Shown here: piece by piece, positions 18,010-52,495 of the stretch
Numbering within the stretch: position 1 is the stretch's first letter
How the letters are laid out: each line of letters opens with the position of its first letter
Source: Streptomyces flavofungini
GTDB taxonomy: Bacteria; Actinomycetota; Actinomycetes; Streptomycetales; Streptomycetaceae
NCBI RefSeq assembly: GCF_030388665.1
Contig: NZ_CP128846.1
Location: 5,902,501-5,966,500 of the forward strand
DNA length: 64,000 bases
Reading direction: 5' to 3'
Position numbers and translations under genes: made by a program
Notes under the pieces: model-generated
Database searches by the model: none
The model's input: only the letters and a program-made list of their open reading frames with translations
What the model was told of the DNA's origin: nothing

Positions 18010-18018
18010 GCTTGTCTG

Positions 18019-18092
18019 TGCGCCGCCAGGGACTCGAACCCCGGACCCGCTGATTAAGAGTCAGCTGCTCTAACCAACTGAGCTAGCGGCGC
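18019..18092 (-). tRNA. tRNA-Lys (anticodon CUU), copy 1
   Basis: A 74-base cloverleaf including the discriminator base. The acceptor stem GCGCCGC pairs with GCGGCGC, the anticodon arm is GCTGA-CTCTTAA-TCAGC with anticodon CTT, and the T arm contains TTCGAGT. No CCA is encoded. Identical copies lie at 29630-29703 and 45777-45850. Confidence 0.95.
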
Positions 18093-29620: not shown

Positions 29621-29629
29621 GCTTGTCTG

Positions 29630-29703
29630 TGCGCCGCCAGGGACTCGAACCCCGGACCCGCTGATTAAGAGTCAGCTGCTCTAACCAACTGAGCTAGCGG
29701 CGC
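29630..29703 (-). tRNA. tRNA-Lys (anticodon CUU), copy 2
   Basis: Base-for-base identical to the copy at 18019-18092, with the same stems, anticodon CTT and discriminator A, and with the same terminator downstream. Confidence 0.95.
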
Positions 29704-45770: not shown

Positions 45771-45776
45771 ATGTCG

Positions 45777-45850
45777 TGCGCCGCCAGGGACTCGAACCCC
45801 GGACCCGCTGATTAAGAGTCAGCTGCTCTAACCAACTGAGCTAGCGGCGC
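45777..45850 (-). tRNA. tRNA-Lys (anticodon CUU), copy 3
   Basis: Identical in all 74 bases to copies 1 and 2 but with different flanks on its 3' side. Its first 10 bases overlap the end of the upstream Prim-Pol-like coding sequence, including that gene's stop codon. Confidence 0.95.
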
Positions 45851-46506
45851 CTGCTGACGTCGTAGACCTTAGCATCCTGATCGCCGCCAGGAAAAATCGA
45901 TATACGCACTGCGGAGCTGGTGGCGGCGCGGGCCGCGCGGACGCACGCCCAGAGCAGCACGTCGGGTCCGGGGAGCCAGGGCTGGCGGGTGTCGGGGGCG
46001 ACCAGCCAGCGGGATCCGCGCCGGTCGTCGGGGTCTGTGCCGTGGCCGGCGGTGAGCGGGGGCACGGTCACCGCGTCGCCCGTGCCGTGGCAGAGCAGGG
46101 CGGGGACGGCGGGGCCCCATTCCTCCCACTCCAGGAGCGAGGGGAGGCGGCGGGCCGTTCCTGGAGCCGCGAAGAGCAGCATCCGGCCGCGGTAGGTGGC
46201 CACCGGGCCCGAGCCGGGGCCGTCGTGCCATAACCGGTCGACCATGCGCCGCCCGAAGACGGCGGGCACGCTGACCACGTCGAAGACGGTGCCGCAGGAC
46301 AGGACCGCGGGGGTGGTGGGGCGGGCGCGCCAGTCCGCGAGCGCTCTGTGCGGATACGTTTCGGCGGAGGTGAGCCAGGTGGCGCCCGCGGGGGTGACGT
46401 CGCAGGCGTTGGTGGGGGTGGCGGGGGTGCTGCGGGCGCCGGGTGCAGCGGGCGCAGTGGGGGTGTGGGGGGTGCGGGGGGTGAGGGTGAGGGAGGAGCT
46501 GCTCAT
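45841..46506 (-). CDS. Small bifunctional primase/polymerase-like protein
   Basis: A 221-residue protein resembling the short actinobacterial proteins annotated as bifunctional DNA primase/polymerase (Prim-Pol) N-terminal domain: ATWLTSAETYPHRALADW, LSCGTVFDVVSVPAVFGRR, ALLCHGTGDAVTVPPL and SRWLVAPDT are the recognisable blocks. Catalytic acidic residues of true Prim-Pol are not obvious, so polymerase activity is doubtful. The start at 46506 lacks a strong ribosome site. The gene runs into the tRNA-Lys gene: its TAG is at 45843-45841, inside the tRNA 5' end, so message and tRNA are likely cut from one transcript or compete. Confidence 0.7.
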   Translation of the reverse strand: MSSSSLTLTPRTPHTPTAPAAPGARSTPATPTNACDVTPAGATWLTSAETYPHRALADWRARPTTPAVLSCGTVFDVVSVPAVFGRRMVDRLWHDGPGSGPVATYRGRMLLFAAPGTARRLPSLLEWEEWGPAVPALLCHGTGDAVTVPPLTAGHGTDPDDRRGSRWLVAPDTRQPWLPGPDVLLWACVRAARAATSSAVRISIFPGGDQDAKVYDVSRRR

Positions 46507-46598
46507 GTCGATACATCTACCGGGTGTGAGCGGGTCCTCTCGCTGAGTTGCGGGAAACCGGGACAGTGGCCGGGGGTGTGAGGTACCTTGCCCCACCG

Positions 46599-46608
46599 GC
46601 ATATGCCA
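46599..46608. promoter_or_regulatory. Palindrome GGCATATGCC
   Basis: A perfect 10-base palindrome lies about 95 bases upstream of the Prim-Pol-like gene. The same sequence with flanking bases (TGGCATATGCCAAG) occurs at 30880-30893 upstream of the IclR gene. Function unknown. Confidence 0.3.
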
Positions 46609-46622
46609 AGGGATCTTGTGGG

Positions 46623-47063
46623 TCAGTGGGGGCCGGGTTCCGTTGTCGGATCCGATGAGTCCGACGACTCTGGCGTTTCTGTTGGCCCTGCCGCTTCCGT
46701 CGGGCCCGCCGCGCCCGACGCCTCGGGGTCGCCTCGCAGGAGTTCGCGGCCGAACTCGATCATCTTCTTCGCGTAGTCCTCGGTCCACTCGGCGCGTTCC
46801 GCGATGTCGGCCGGGGTGAGGCGGTCGAAGCGCCGCGGGTCGGCCAGTTGGGCGGCGGCCAGGGCCTGGAACTCGACGGAGCGGTCGGTCGCGGCGCGGA
46901 AGGCCAGGGTCAACTCGGTGGACCTGGCGAGGAGTTCGCGCGGGTCCTCGATGGACTCCAGGTCGAAGAAGTGCTCGGGGTCGGAGGTGGCTTCCGCGGG
47001 CTCGAAGAGGAGCGGTGCGGGGCGCATGCGCTGGCTGGACCGGGGCCGCGAGGGCTCCGCCAT
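46623..47063 (-). CDS. Conserved actinobacterial hypothetical protein
   Basis: A 146-residue cytosolic protein without a named domain. The middle (about 30-110) is helical and rich in Glu/Arg/Leu (FDLESIEDPRELLARSTELTLAFRAATDR) and contains LTPADIAERAEW with some helix-turn-helix character; the C-terminus is an acidic Ser/Thr/Pro tail. The start at 47063 has AGAGGA seven bases upstream. It lies between the helicase operon and the Prim-Pol-like gene on the same strand. Confidence 0.65.
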   Translation of the reverse strand: MAEPSRPRSSQRMRPAPLLFEPAEATSDPEHFFDLESIEDPRELLARSTELTLAFRAATDRSVEFQALAAAQLADPRRFDRLTPADIAERAEWTEDYAKKMIEFGRELLRGDPEASGAAGPTEAAGPTETPESSDSSDPTTEPGPH

Positions 47064-47247
47064 GTCGTTTTCCTCTCGTCGTACGCCACGTGGCCGCATC
47101 CATTGTCCCCCGCCCCGCAAGAGGCCCGCGCGGAGTCGTGTCCCGCGCGGGTGCTGGCGGTGCCCCTCTGCTCGGGTTCCGGCACGGCCCCTCCGGTCCG
47201 GAGGTGGGGTTTCCCCTTCGGCCGGCCGTCCGGTGGGGGTGGTGTGG

Positions 47248-48603
47248 TCAGGGCCAGGGGACCCGGTGGGACGTCAGGCGCGAGAGGATTGCGTGGTTGG
47301 CTTCCCAGCCGTCGGGGAACTTGACCGTGACGCCCAGTTGGACGGGCTCCGTGGAGGGATGGTCGTCCAGGAGGGTGTCGACTCCCGCGCGGCACACCAC
47401 GATGCACGCGTGCCGGTGCCGGGACGTGAGGACGCACAGCCGTCCCGTCTCCAGGTGGAAGGCCGTGGCGTCCGGCCGCCCGGACAGGGGGTGGAGGACC
47501 ACGGTCACGTCGAACTCCCGGCCCTGGAGGCGATTGGCCGTGTCCACGGTCACGTTCGTGACCCCGAGGGCGGAGAGCGCGCCGCGTACGGCTGCTGCCT
47601 GGTCCCGGTGCGCCGTCCCGACGGCGATCCGGTCGGCCGTGAGGGGGACGGGATCGGGCGCCCGCTCGGACGTGGCCGCCCCGCCCCGGTCGAGCAGCCG
47701 CCGCACCACGAGAGCGACGGCCCGGACGGCCTCGGGGTCCGTACGCGGCGTGTTGCGGGCGGGCAGTTCGAGGAGACCCCACCCGGAGTGGGCCGCTTCG
47801 TCGATGACCCGGTCGGGACCCGAACCGTCGGAGGGGACGGCGAAGCCGAGCGCCCGGTCGGCGTGGGAGGTGCCGCTGCGGAAGGGCGTGTAGGGATAGA
47901 ACGCGTCGGAGACCAGCGGCGCGGCCGACGCGGGCAGCCGCCACGACACGGGCAGCCGGTGCTGCGGCAGCCCGGGGTTGTGGGCGAGGAGCGTGGTCAC
48001 CGCGGACGCCGACGGATCGTACGCGAGCCCCGCCCACTGCTCGGCCTCGGCGATGGCGAAGGGGTCCAACTGCCCCGGGTCGCCCACGAACAGGGCCCGC
48101 TCGAAGAGCCCGGCGACAGCGAGGAGCGCGTCGGACCGCATCTGGTACGCCTCGTCGACGATGGCGTGCCGCCAGGGCTCGACGTCCTTGACGTGCCCCC
48201 ACTTCGCGGCGGTGGACACGACGACGTCGAGCCCCGCGAGGTCGCCGGCCTTCGCGGACTTGCGTACGTTCGCGAGGGCGTCGAGCGCCTTGTCGTACGG
48301 GTCGGGGTCGCTGCTGTGCAGTCGGCCGACGGGCAGTTCGGGGTTCTTCTCGGCGAGGCGCAGGACGAGGTCGTCGACCTGGGCGTTGGTCTGGGCGACG
48401 ACCATCAGGGGGCGCCCCGCCGCGGCCAGTTCGAGGGCGGCGCGGACCACGAGGGTCGACTTCCCGGCGCCGGGAGGGGAGTCGACGACGACTCCGCGGT
48501 GCGCGCCGTCGAGCGTGTCGCGCAGGATCGCGTCGGTGGCCCGGGCGGCTTCCGCCCCGGGGTCGAAGGGGGCTGTGCTCGCTTCGAGGGGTGCCGGGCT
48601 CAC
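47248..48603 (-). CDS. SF1B (Dna2/Upf1-like) helicase
   Basis: A 451-residue helicase. Walker A is DSPPGAGKST (41-50), motif II is IVDEAYQM (DEAY at about 150-153), motif III is FVGDPGQLDPF, motif V is DTANRLQGREFD and motif VI is LCVLTSRHRHA, the set found in AAA_11/AAA_12 proteins such as Dna2 and Upf1. It is shorter than most and lacks accessory domains. The GTG start shares GTGA with the stop of the upstream gene, so synthesis is coupled to it. With the Fe-S nuclease two genes upstream it resembles a Dna2 enzyme split into subunits. Confidence 0.85.
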   Translation of the reverse strand: MSPAPLEASTAPFDPGAEAARATDAILRDTLDGAHRGVVVDSPPGAGKSTLVVRAALELAAAGRPLMVVAQTNAQVDDLVLRLAEKNPELPVGRLHSSDPDPYDKALDALANVRKSAKAGDLAGLDVVVSTAAKWGHVKDVEPWRHAIVDEAYQMRSDALLAVAGLFERALFVGDPGQLDPFAIAEAEQWAGLAYDPSASAVTTLLAHNPGLPQHRLPVSWRLPASAAPLVSDAFYPYTPFRSGTSHADRALGFAVPSDGSGPDRVIDEAAHSGWGLLELPARNTPRTDPEAVRAVALVVRRLLDRGGAATSERAPDPVPLTADRIAVGTAHRDQAAAVRGALSALGVTNVTVDTANRLQGREFDVTVVLHPLSGRPDATAFHLETGRLCVLTSRHRHACIVVCRAGVDTLLDDHPSTEPVQLGVTVKFPDGWEANHAILSRLTSHRVPWP

Positions 48604-50195
48604 AGGATGTCCTCCGCTGTCACGGGGTCGGGCCGTTCACCGACGGGGGGCGCCGCCCGCGGGGGACCGCCGTGCGTCCACGGGGTGTCCTCCGGGTCCG
48701 GGAGGCGCGGCCCGCCCCGCTGCTCGTGCTCGAAGAGCGTCCAGCACAGGCGGTCGCCCACCTCCGGGACGGAGCCCGGCTCGGGCTCCTTGCCCCGGCC
48801 CATCTTGTCCAGGAGGCGCAGGACGAGCCCGCCGTCGGGGGCGTGGGCGACGAACTGGAAGGACTGGGGCTTGCCCGCGAGCGAGCGGTAGGCCTTGACG
48901 CCCTCGTCGAGCTGGGGGCGGTCGGCGGTGTCGACGGTGACGAGGGGGCGGGGGCGGGGCGAGCGGCCTTCGCCGTACGCCATGACGACGTCGGTCACCT
49001 CCCCGGCGAAGGCCTCGCCCGCGAGCCGCCGCCCGGCCATGACCAGCGGGTCGTCCAGGGCCTCCTGGGCGTCGAGGCGGGCCTGCTCGCGCTCGCGGGT
49101 GGCGAGCTTGTTCGCGGCGGTGACCGCGTCGTCGACGCGGGGCTGCGGCGGCTCACCGGCGGCGACGCGGTCGCGGTGCCCGGTGAACGACCAGCGGTCC
49201 CCGCGCCACCGGTCGAGGGCGCTCGGCGCCTCGGGCAGGGTGCACAGGATGTCCAGGCCGCGCCACACCGCGTCCCAGGTGGGCCGGGTGCGGCTGGCCA
49301 CGAGGGCGTCGATCTCGCGCTCGGCGGCGCCGAGCGAGGCGAGCAGCGCGTCCGCCTCGACGCCGTCCGCGGCCGCGGCCAGGGCGGTGCGGGCCCGGTC
49401 GTGGCGCTCGATGGCCGGGGCGAGGAGCTGGTTGTCGAACGCCGGGTCCGTGGCGGGGCCCGCGGGCGGACACAGCAACTGCCCGTCGGCGTCCCTGGCC
49501 AGCTCCGCGCGGAGCGCCGCTGCCGCGCCGGACGTCCCCTCGGGCGCCTCGATCCACGCGAGCAGCGCGCCCAGGTGCTGCTCCTCCAGGGAGGACTGGC
49601 CGGTGGCCCAGTGCCGGGACAGCAGGTCGGTCATGGCGAGGAGCAGCGACGAGCCGGGCACGCGGGAGCGCTCGCCGTAGTGCGTGAGCCAGCGCCCGAG
49701 CAGCGGCACGCGCGGGGGCGCGGGATACGGCGCGTCCGGATCCTGCTCGGCCGTGCGCCGGAACCGCATGGAGCGGCCGAGCAGCCGTACGAACTCGATG
49801 CCCGCGCGGCTCGGCACGATCAGCTGCGGGGCGTCCGCGCACAGCTCGGCCTCGACCTTGACGCGCTTGCCGGTCTCCGGGTCGGTCTCGGTGCGCTCGG
49901 CGGCCTCGACGTCGTCCGCGTACGACTCGACGTACGGCAGCAGGATCTCGGCGAGCCGGGACAGGAACGCGAAGCGCAGGTCGCGGTCGCGGGGCTGGGC
50001 CACCGTGAGCAGGCGGGGGGCCGTGCGCTCGGTGCCGATCAGGGCGCCGAGCGGGGCGCCCGTCTCACCGGCGGTGGTGAGCGGCACGAAGACCAAGGGG
50101 CGCTGGGAGAGGTGCCGGTGGCGGACGGTGGCCCGCGGCTGGGCGCGTCCCGTGGTCGCGGCGTCGAGCCGGGCCAGGTTGTCGATCAGGGACAA
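48600..50195 (-). CDS. Central protein of the nuclease-helicase operon, unknown function
   Basis: A 531-residue protein I cannot assign to a family. It is largely helical with charged, coiled stretches (ATREREQARLDAQEALDDP), and has a short beta-rich C-terminal part (about 410-531) containing PRPLVTVDTADRPQLDEG and FVAHAPDGGLVLRLLDKMG, which could be a small nucleic-acid-binding fold. It starts at TTG 50195 with GGAGG upstream, overlaps the nuclease gene by 10 bases and the helicase gene by 4. The tight coupling implies a stoichiometric complex with both neighbours. Confidence 0.72.
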   Translation of the reverse strand: MSLIDNLARLDAATTGRAQPRATVRHRHLSQRPLVFVPLTTAGETGAPLGALIGTERTAPRLLTVAQPRDRDLRFAFLSRLAEILLPYVESYADDVEAAERTETDPETGKRVKVEAELCADAPQLIVPSRAGIEFVRLLGRSMRFRRTAEQDPDAPYPAPPRVPLLGRWLTHYGERSRVPGSSLLLAMTDLLSRHWATGQSSLEEQHLGALLAWIEAPEGTSGAAAALRAELARDADGQLLCPPAGPATDPAFDNQLLAPAIERHDRARTALAAAADGVEADALLASLGAAEREIDALVASRTRPTWDAVWRGLDILCTLPEAPSALDRWRGDRWSFTGHRDRVAAGEPPQPRVDDAVTAANKLATREREQARLDAQEALDDPLVMAGRRLAGEAFAGEVTDVVMAYGEGRSPRPRPLVTVDTADRPQLDEGVKAYRSLAGKPQSFQFVAHAPDGGLVLRLLDKMGRGKEPEPGSVPEVGDRLCWTLFEHEQRGGPRLPDPEDTPWTHGGPPRAAPPVGERPDPVTAEDIL

Positions 50196-51415
50196 CGCGC
50201 ACCTCCGGCGAGCGCCTCGGCGCGCAGCGCGCCCGCGCGGCGCAGCGCCGCCACCGCCGGGTCGTCGGCGTCGCCCGCCTCGCCCCGGGCCGCGGCCAGG
50301 GCCTCGTCGATGGTGGCGAGCGTGCCGAGGTCGGCGCGCAGGGAGCGGCCGAGCGAGGCCGGTTCGCCCGCCGCGCGGGCCCGGTCGCGGCAGTGGAAGG
50401 CCAGCTCGCAGGCGGCCAGGCACTCGGGGGCGTACGTCGCGGGGACCGCGTCGACCGCGGCGGCGAGCTCGGCGGCGGGCCGCGTCACGTCGAACGTCGT
50501 GCCGGGCGGGAGCGTGGCCGCGATGTCCTCGACGCGGGTCAGGCGGGACAGCTGGCGGCGGGTGACGGCGAGCTGCTTGCGGACGTCCACGGGGGACGCG
50601 GTCGGCAGGTTCGAGAAGTCCTTGGGGCAGACGAGGAGCGCGCGGTGGCGCACCTCGGGCGCGGGGTCGAGGCGGTGCGCGACCCGCTCCAGGGCGAGGA
50701 CGTACACCGCGGCCTGCCGGGCCGCCGCGCCCACCTTCGCGGCGTCCGCCGACCCGTCGATCATGGGGAAGGACTTGATCTCGACGACCGTCCAGGTCCC
50801 GTCCGGCGCGACGACCACGGCGTCCGGCTCCAGGAAGGCGGGCGTGCCCGCGACGTCGAGGGCCAGCATCGGGTGGTCGAGCAGCGCCCAGGTGCCGGTG
50901 GCCGAGGCCTCCTCCAGGGCGAGCTCCGTGCGGGCCGCGCGGCCCTCGGGCCCGGCCGCCGTGAGGTCCGGCACACTCGCCGCCCCGGGCTCCGGCTCAG
51001 GTCCGCCGCCCAGGCACGCGTGCGTGAGGCGCAGCAGCTCCGTGCCGCCGTCGGCCTTCACACGGGCCTCGAAGGCGTGCCCCCGCATGAACGCGAACTG
51101 CGACTGCCCGAAGCCCGAGGGCGAGCCCAGCGCCTCGGCGAGCGCCGCCTTGGGCACGCCCGCGCCGTCCAGCAGCGCGCGCCGCCCGCAGCCCGGGTTC
51201 GCCGCGAGCGCCGCCAGGGCGCGGGCGTCCAGGGGCTGCGGCGGTACGTCAGGTCCGCGCAGCTCCGCGAGCCGGTGTCTGAGCGCTGTCCCCGGTGTCC
51301 GAGGCGCGGCCCGCGGGCCTGGCGCCCTTGTTCCCGCAGGGCTTGCCGCCCGGCTTGGCGGCGGGCTTGCCGCCCGGATCGGTCCCGAGCTTGCGCTGAT
51401 GGGGAATTCGCTCAC
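50186..51415 (-). CDS. Fe-S cluster PD-(D/E)XK nuclease (Cas4/RecB/Dna2-like)
   Basis: A protein of about 409 residues. The nuclease core is visible as RGHAFEARV (motif I region), then LEPDAVVV...TWTVVEIKS, giving Asp198, Glu212 and Lys214. Four cysteines follow the iron-sulfur nuclease layout: one near the N-terminus (Cys76 in NPGCGRRA) and three near the C-terminus (Cys332-X3-Cys336-X5-Cys342 in ECLAACELAFHC). Dna2, AddB and Cas4 share this pattern. The start is uncertain: GTG 51415 or ATG 51445, either of which overlaps the PAP2 gene by more than 160 bases; the first 45 residues are low-complexity. Confidence 0.8.
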   Translation of the reverse strand: MSEFPISASSGPIRAASPPPSRAASPAGTRAPGPRAAPRTPGTALRHRLAELRGPDVPPQPLDARALAALAANPGCGRRALLDGAGVPKAALAEALGSPSGFGQSQFAFMRGHAFEARVKADGGTELLRLTHACLGGGPEPEPGAASVPDLTAAGPEGRAARTELALEEASATGTWALLDHPMLALDVAGTPAFLEPDAVVVAPDGTWTVVEIKSFPMIDGSADAAKVGAAARQAAVYVLALERVAHRLDPAPEVRHRALLVCPKDFSNLPTASPVDVRKQLAVTRRQLSRLTRVEDIAATLPPGTTFDVTRPAAELAAAVDAVPATYAPECLAACELAFHCRDRARAAGEPASLGRSLRADLGTLATIDEALAAARGEAGDADDPAVAALRRAGALRAEALAGGARCP

Positions 51416-52322
51416 CCGCCGAAGTCTGGCATCCGGCACTGACAATCGAGGAGTCAGTGGCGGCCGGGGCGGGGGTGGCGTCAGCGGGGCCCTCGGCGCG
51501 CCTCGCGGCGAGGGCGGTCGTGACGATCGGCCGCAGCCGGGCCCTGACCCGGGCCGCGGCGCCCTGCACCGGCCGGACGAGCAGCAGGCCGATGCCCATC
51601 ACGACGGCGCCCGCGACCGCGTCGAGGAAGTAGTGGTTGGCGGTGCCCATGACGACGACGGTGGTGAGCAGCGGGTAGGCGATGGCGAGGGTCTTCATCA
51701 GGGGCGTGCGGCCGTACCGCCAGAGCACCACACCGCACCACAGCGACCAGCCGACGTGCAGGCTGGGCATCGCCGCGTACTGGTTGGTCATGCCGCCGAG
51801 TCCGCGCGGGGCGCTGGCCTGGCCGCCCCACCAGCCCCAGTCGCTGTACTGCGCCATCGTGTCGACGAAGCCGTGCTTGGCGTCGAGGAGGCGCGGCGGG
51901 CAGGTCGGCATCAGGGTGAAGCCGACCAGGCCGATGAGCGTGGAGACCATCAGCCAGGTGCGGGCGGCCGCGTAGTGCACGGCCCTGCTGCGGAACAGCC
52001 AGACCAGCACCAGTGGCGTGACCAGGTAGTGCAGCGAGGCGTACCAGAAGTCCGCAGGAACGCCGATGGAGGTGTGGGCCGTGAAGAGCCGGTTGAGCGG
52101 ATGCTCCAGGTTCAGGTTCAGGGCCTTCTCGACGCGGAGGAGGTCGAGGCCGTGGTCCACGGCCGTCGTGACGTCCCCGCGCGCGAGCAGCCGCCCGGCG
52201 GAGTAGGCCCCGTACACCAGGAGGATCAGCGGTAGCTCCGTCCACCAGCGCGGGCGGATCGGGGACGTCAGGCTCTCCGATATGCCGCGGCTGCCGGCGC
52301 CCTTTGCCTCGGTCTGCGGCAT
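51249..52322 (-). CDS. PAP2-family membrane phosphatase
   Basis: A 357-residue integral membrane protein with about six spans. The phosphatase motifs appear as MPTCPPRLL, YAAMPSLHVGWS (catalytic histidine in SLHVG) and ANHYFLDAVAG (second histidine), the pattern of the inositolphosphotransferase/PAP2_3 group that acts on lipid phosphates. The last 90 residues are a Pro/Gly/Lys-rich tail. ATG 52322 is preferred over ATG 52343 because GGGGGA lies nine bases upstream. Its 3' end overlaps the presumed start of the nuclease gene in another frame. Confidence 0.83.
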   Translation of the reverse strand: MPQTEAKGAGSRGISESLTSPIRPRWWTELPLILLVYGAYSAGRLLARGDVTTAVDHGLDLLRVEKALNLNLEHPLNRLFTAHTSIGVPADFWYASLHYLVTPLVLVWLFRSRAVHYAAARTWLMVSTLIGLVGFTLMPTCPPRLLDAKHGFVDTMAQYSDWGWWGGQASAPRGLGGMTNQYAAMPSLHVGWSLWCGVVLWRYGRTPLMKTLAIAYPLLTTVVVMGTANHYFLDAVAGAVVMGIGLLLVRPVQGAAARVRARLRPIVTTALAARRAEGPADATPAPAATDSSIVSAGCQTSAGERIPHQRKLGTDPGGKPAAKPGGKPCGNKGARPAGRASDTGDSAQTPARGAART

Positions 52323-52495
52323 CCGGTGGGTCCCCCATCTCATTCGCGCTGTTCCCGCTCTGTTCTCGCGGCGTACGGCCGCTGGGTCACTTTACGGCGT
52401 ACGCGAAGGCCGATGAGTCAACCCCCTGTGCCTCAAAGACGCAGAGATCGCCGCCCGGGTTGCGCCTTCCCGGTGTGAGTGATGATGGAAGGAAC

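Follow-up and report, generated by a model that had tools for sequence, protein, structure and literature searches.

A probable Dna2-like nuclease-helicase divided over three overlapping genes in Streptomyces

We analysed a stretch of 64,000 nucleotides from Streptomyces flavofungini (contig NZ_CP128846.1, positions 5,902,501 to 5,966,500; hereafter the window), which holds, between positions 47248 and 51415 of its minus strand, an operon of three genes in the order NUC-MID-HEL, named here for a nuclease, a middle and a helicase subunit (Table 1). A preliminary description of this DNA had read the three genes as one set, fused by overlaps of 10 and 4 bases, and these overlaps proved to be conserved as well. 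Indeed, in a survey of 80 other Streptomyces-type loci, the NUC/MID overlap (-10) is kept in 60 of the 76 core loci where both genes could be placed, and the MID/HEL overlap (-4) in 58 of 74. Upstream, an open reading frame (ORF) of the PAP2 family (51249-52343, minus strand) extends 167 bases into NUC, so that the start of NUC is uncertain and its first ~40 residues are perhaps not all translated; NUC residues are numbered from the open frame at 51445.

Table 1. The trio and its gene overlaps (positions in the window)
Feature	Position	Strand	Details	Assignment
NUC	50186-51415	minus	GTG start, frame open to 51445	Fe-S RecB/Cas4/Dna2-type PD-(D/E)XK nuclease subunit, motif-assigned
MID	48600-50195	minus	531 amino acids, TTG start	middle subunit
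HEL	47248-48603	minus	451 amino acids	SF1B UPF1/DNA2-type helicase motor
NUC/MID overlap	50186-50195	minus	10 bases	putative translational coupling
MID/HEL overlap	48600-48603	minus	4 bases, GTGA	

NUC carries the core residues of a RecB-type nuclease (E126, D208, E222-I-K224, Q244 and Y248) and four cysteines of iron-sulfur (Fe-S) type, one N-terminal (C86) and three C-terminal (C342, C346 and C352). Of 76 core NUC rows, 74-75 keep the acids and the lysine and 74-76 keep the cysteines, the remainder being gaps, and Q244 is replaced by R in one row; in other genera, all active-site residues and the four cysteines are found in 10 of 10 rows. In-frame stops occur in the NUC matches of genome G132 (one stop; outside these residue counts), of G055 and of the second copy of G123. 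NUC has no match in Pfam or PADLOC at E <= 1 and none in NCBIfam over the cut-off, its sequence finds no nuclease in the PDB, and two designed proteins matched there by its profile (E 6.9e-7 and 4.6e-5, ~35 residues) were dismissed as composition artefacts. By motifs alone, NUC is classed as a RecB/Cas4/Dna2-type Fe-S nuclease. The residue conservation agrees with the preliminary description, which had proposed an Fe-S PD-(D/E)XK nuclease with a D-E-K core and one N-terminal plus three C-terminal cysteines; the core is intact at the level of sequence.

HEL, as had been anticipated, shows the core motifs of a superfamily 1B (SF1B) helicase, including Walker A and B, and matches Pfam AAA_11 and AAA_12, being the single match to the latter (PF13087) in the whole genome. 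By sequence, it is closest in the PDB to SMUBP2, DNA2 and UPF1, the first two being the best, and no UvrD family is among its 15 Pfam matches at E <= 1. Only ~41 residues lie ahead of Walker A in HEL, compared with 207 and 646 residues ahead of the aligned motor region in SMUBP2 and DNA2, respectively; judged by this length, HEL has no 1B barrel of its own. PADLOC-DB 2.0.0 yields six partial matches to HEL (best MkoA, E 2.3e-8), and the model PLuB (NF040671) is matched over the helicase part only, with 52.7 bits against a cut-off of 999; the one paper found under the name PLuB is unrelated to the trio.

For MID, Pfam, NCBIfam and PADLOC give no match at E <= 1, and its sequence alone finds nothing in the PDB. 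Two weak, unrelated Pfam matches were seen in single members of its family, and the PDB matches of its profile, NucC (E 0.13-1.4) and HSC70 (E 1.1), were dismissed as chance; hence, no named family with an unrelated role claims this protein. Its relatives number 3502 among 8000 scored candidates; the 120 matches listed have coverages of 96-100%, all organisms named among them are Streptomyces and nearly all named entries are "hypothetical". In a structural model of MID, residues ~30-320 may resemble the 3'-5' exonuclease (RNase H-like) domain of family-B polymerases, residues ~324-391 look like a helical stalk, and residues ~392-489 like a beta-barrel resembling that of Sen1/senataxin, which we take to be the 1B domain. 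The C-terminal half of MID thus resembles the stalk and 1B barrel that are missing from HEL, and the model would thereby place MID structurally between its partners, as had been supposed. Dna2 and UPF1 are absent from the 50 structural matches of the MID model listed (VIA-align rows) but are not excluded thereby. In the exonuclease-like domain, the motif-I D-x-E appears to be lost, with no acid at residues 37/39 in 111 of 111 ungapped rows; the alignment offset maps D141 and E143 of KOD polymerase, presumably the motif-I acids, to these positions, a register that is inferred since only the end points of the structural alignment are known.

The three genes are inherited as one unit. Of 148 Actinomycetes genomes, the same 21 (including 11 Streptomyces) have NUC, MID and HEL, and in 20 of these the trio is adjacent and in the same order. 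The loci of the class search have the three genes side by side in 19 of 20 cases, and in the 21st genome, G111, the trio is together as well (L130); the exception, G095 (L117), has NUC-MID without an adjacent HEL, the helicase gene lying ~36 kb off. Two further weak MID matches (G127, E 5e-4; G139, E 8e-4) were discounted as chance, both genomes being without NUC and HEL. MID was found in 142 of 150 Streptomyces species; of the eight without it, several of which are fragmented drafts, seven also lack NUC, and HEL is absent in five of five tested, while the eighth, a fragmented draft, retains part of NUC where a contig breaks off. When 246 genomes from across the phylum were searched with a profile, MID turned up in 10, all Actinomycetes. 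The order NUC-MID-HEL is constant across core loci, other genera and the extra copies described below. Furthermore, the window's gene neighbourhood is kept around the trio in all 55 long loci among the 80 (the titles of which are all Streptomyces, except for one "Actinobacteria bacterium"), with the PAP2-family neighbour in 54 and the downstream 420-residue ORF in 50, and core HEL sequences are 83-90% identical (25 loci listed). Because it is present in 142 of 150 species and syntenic, the window copy is a core locus, and a variable defence island, which the preliminary description had considered, is ruled out for it; the co-occurrence of the trio, on which that description depended, is near-perfect.

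Some Streptomyces carry a second, diverged trio, whose MID is ~36-47% identical to that of the window; the matches listed and examined comprise an SbcCD type and a pPIWI-RE type. With one SbcCD-type MID as query, 15 of 392 Streptomyces were picked, by MID sequence alone, at E <= 1e-90. All 15 have the order X-NUC-MID-HEL, led by an additional gene X, and a divergent SbcD/Mre11-like gene (a partial match only in G393); an SbcC/Rad50-like match is present in 14, seven of these covering under half of the query. The SbcCD-linked NUC copies keep the active-site residues and four cysteines. A Wadjet set follows in 7 of the 15 genomes and in both SbcCD-type plasmid copies; the two plasmid sets and four of the genomic ones are of type I, the other three of type II. 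At the level of loci, type II (L128, L142 and L143) or type I (L129, L131, L132, L140, L141 and L144) follows the SbcCD-linked trio, as though one could stand in for the other at this place.

Five SbcCD-type genomes are near-complete (one or two contigs), and in four of them the set lies within 22 kb of an end of the main contig: 21.7 kb in G494, 21.5 kb in G420 and 8.8 kb in G664, each from both ends, and 6.8 kb from one end in G460. The exception is G475, at 520 kb. In each of the five, the core copy is internal, with 2.95-3.8 Mb to the closer end. Were the sets placed at random, four of five would fall within 22 kb with P ~2e-9, a value that overstates independence because the five genomes are related. 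On the plasmids, the distance to the record end is 12.8 kb for one copy and 4.3 kb for the other, the latter record being labelled circular and its SbcCD genes looking fragmented. Helicases with helicase-associated (HA) repeats, possibly TtrA-like, were seen after the trio in L122 (9910-12150) and L134, and in the outermost kilobases of contigs in L140 (2-1789) and L146. Streptomyces chromosome ends have been described as enriched in Wadjet (PMC10482375), and ttrA helicase genes as present at most replicon ends (PMC8743542). A location near the ends, taken by itself, may therefore be due in part to the tendency of accessory genes to gather there.

All four loci of the pPIWI-RE type have PprPDDEXK and PprDinG divergent from X-NUC-MID-HEL; they amount to about one event since their PprPDDEXK and X are 93-96% alike. 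PprRE and the PIWI gene were looked for in these loci and found in G381 only, where PprPIWI, PprDinG, PprRE and PprPDDEXK are divergent from the trio with its X (L152 5572-14773, L123 4784-9835). The NUC of this type bears the substitutions E126H, E222L and K224R while keeping all four cysteines, so that the nuclease, that of G381 included, should be dead. The pPIWI-RE system has been described as an operon of three genes, a REase and DinG among them, and the trio goes unmentioned in that part of the account (PMC3702460). In G123 (L151 5628-9116 and 11980-15516, the latter equal to L121 1977-5516), the pPIWI-linked trio is immediately followed by an HmaA-like gene and, at a greater distance, by an HmaC-like gene, while L124 and L127 have an SNF2 gene of another type (C3a139-like) nearby instead.

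Trees of MID and HEL each separate the core type (100/100) and the pPIWI type (100/100), and place the SbcCD type weakly on one side of a branch (73/90 and 91/87 for MID and HEL, respectively). The two trees conflict over the pPIWI type, which groups with the core for HEL (98/93) but not for MID. Gene X encodes ~250-325 residues with a coiled-coil-like start; it lies ahead of NUC in every copy examined of the SbcCD and pPIWI types and in 4 of 10 loci of other genera (L113, L114, L119 and L133). It has coiled-coil-like matches only, with no confident one in Pfam or the PDB, and it was not found in the window's own genome, although an empty search of this kind is weak.

We propose, with a probability of about 0.6, that the trio works as a single machine, a nuclease-helicase of Dna2-like type split over three translationally coupled genes that acts as a three-subunit processor of DNA ends. 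This reading is favoured by the presence of the genes in the same 21 of 148 genomes, joint loss, constant order, conserved overlaps, the matches of the MID model, the short HEL N-terminus and the SbcD-like neighbour in 15 of 15 SbcCD-type genomes. HEL would be the ATP-driven SF1B motor, and MID would contribute, as a separate chain, the stalk and 1B barrel that UPF1, Sen1 and Dna2 have within their own, such that MID and HEL together make a working helicase. The exonuclease-like domain of MID, apparently empty catalytically, probably grips DNA or docks NUC. With the strand polarity that we infer, NUC, stapled by its Fe-S cluster, would cut single-stranded DNA as it leaves the motor. Its Fe-S fold may double as a scaffold, which would explain the retention of a dead nuclease. 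The assembled core trio would most likely act in repair or replication, resecting or trimming DNA ends, flaps or gaps. Some of the diverged copies may have been drawn to Mre11-Rad50-like (SbcCD) genes, in many cases at chromosome ends, and others to pPIWI-RE, with the nuclease dead and other nucleases encoded adjacent. Dna2 joins Mre11-Rad50 in eukaryotes, as NurA-HerA does in archaea, and by analogy the extra copies may join the Mre11-Rad50-like proteins encoded next to them.

Two rivals of this repair role are to be taken seriously. The trio could be a core immune system that breaks down the incoming DNA of phages or plasmids, or one that primes defence, the core copy then belonging to a fixed Streptomyces defence set. 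Extra copies do adjoin SbcCD-like genes, followed by Wadjet in the genomes and plasmids named above, and pPIWI-RE genes in four of four loci. Yet defence genes are usually patchy, whereas the core copy is near-universal in the genus, keeps one syntenic place and evolves slowly, and PADLOC has no match to MID or NUC; we consider an immune role rather unlikely. The preliminary description had offered an end-processing or a defence machine, and this choice is narrowed without being settled: the window copy is core and syntenic, and defence or chromosome-end settings are seen for extra copies only.

The Sen1-like barrel would also suit a surveillance enzyme for R-loops or nascent RNA, that is, a bacterial Sen1/UPF1-like motor with a nuclease attached. 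RecB-type Fe-S nucleases, however, act on DNA, the best PDB sequence matches of HEL are SMUBP2 and DNA2, MID is without the motif-I acids, and the SbcCD-like neighbours of the extra copies suggest DNA ends; DNA, not RNA, is therefore the probable substrate, and an RNA role appears improbable. Mere co-transcription, with MID working apart from the others (e.g. as a scaffold or regulator) and no joint enzyme of NUC and HEL, would fit the distant HEL gene of G095. This reading is very improbable given the near-perfect co-occurrence and joint loss of the trio and the fact that the barrel missing from HEL appears to be carried by MID.

Downstream of the trio lies the 420-residue ORF (45841-47103, minus strand), without a Pfam match, whose end overlaps a tRNA-Lys gene by 10 bases. 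This gene, ~1.4 kb from the trio, is one of three tRNA-Lys(CTT) genes within 28 kb of the window (18018-18092, 29629-29703 and 45776-45850, minus strand), a possible sign that integration has repeatedly targeted one type of tRNA gene.

An operon that almost all Streptomyces have, and that is annotated as hypothetical, thus gains a concrete anatomy, that of a candidate Dna2-type enzyme in three parts, in which a piece of a helicase would be encoded by a separate gene hitherto called unknown. The trio becomes a candidate for resection in bacteria whose chromosomes are linear, and the extra copies tie it to Mre11-Rad50-like proteins (often at chromosome ends), Wadjet and pPIWI-RE. The natural version with a putatively dead nuclease and four cysteines is a ready control for a structural role of the Fe-S nuclease domain. 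More speculatively, and with doubt prevailing, the extra copies might be a six-gene bacterial counterpart of eukaryotic MRE11-RAD50-plus-DNA2 resection, with SbcC-SbcD divergent from X-NUC-MID-HEL, working on or selected for the ends of linear Streptomyces replicons, the core trio being the general-purpose, genome-wide version.

Among known systems, no full-length match to the trio components was found in PADLOC-DB 2.0.0, nor a description of this gene set in the literature searched, which covered few subscription journals. A further single-chain nuclease-helicase that we compared is the RecB-like TM0106 family (TIGR03491), represented by 13 actinobacterial ORFs of 1131-1303 codons from 14 loci. 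Its C-terminal motor is related to HEL (profile E 6e-22), and its N-terminal region is weakly similar to the cysteine-bearing region of NUC (E 0.003, reversed control 0.44); no sequence signal marks it as an ancestor of MID (E 0.22, reversed control 0.29). In NCBIfam, TIGR03491 has no match at E <= 1 to NUC, MID or HEL and none in the window's genome, and it is matched over the cut-off in 1 of the 21 trio genomes. The seemingly complementary distribution of the two (1 overlap observed, 5.5 expected, P 0.009) was discarded as evidence because it is confounded by ancestry, 11 of the 21 trio genomes being Streptomyces.

With AddAB, RecBCD and AdnAB, which act in end resection with UvrD-like SF1A motors, the trio shares the pairing of a RecB-type nuclease with a helicase, but HEL is of SF1B and without a UvrD match. 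With UPF1, SMUBP2 and Sen1, it shares the motor motifs of HEL and a barrel, in MID, akin to that of Sen1/senataxin; unlike in these helicases, the barrel lies in a separate protein and a nuclease partner is present. The Mre11-Rad50-HerA-NurA operon is archaeal and resembles the extra Streptomyces copies in that Mre11-Rad50-like genes adjoin a nuclease-helicase set, although HerA and NurA are of other protein families. Dna2, finally, has the domain order nuclease, barrel/stalk and helicase, to which NUC, MID and HEL would correspond, and the likeness extends to a predicted RecB-type Fe-S nuclease with a D-E-K site and four cysteines and to an SF1B motor of the UPF1 family, with the stalk and barrel modelled in MID. 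The split Dna2-like anatomy suggested by the preliminary description is thereby supported. The trio differs from Dna2 in being three separate ORFs in the window and the compared loci, in the apparently inactive exonuclease-like domain of MID, and in that HEL alone, and only its motor, matches DNA2 by sequence. Altogether, the trio is Dna2-like by anatomy, while it is neither Dna2 in the sense of one chain nor TM0106 by the NCBIfam model.
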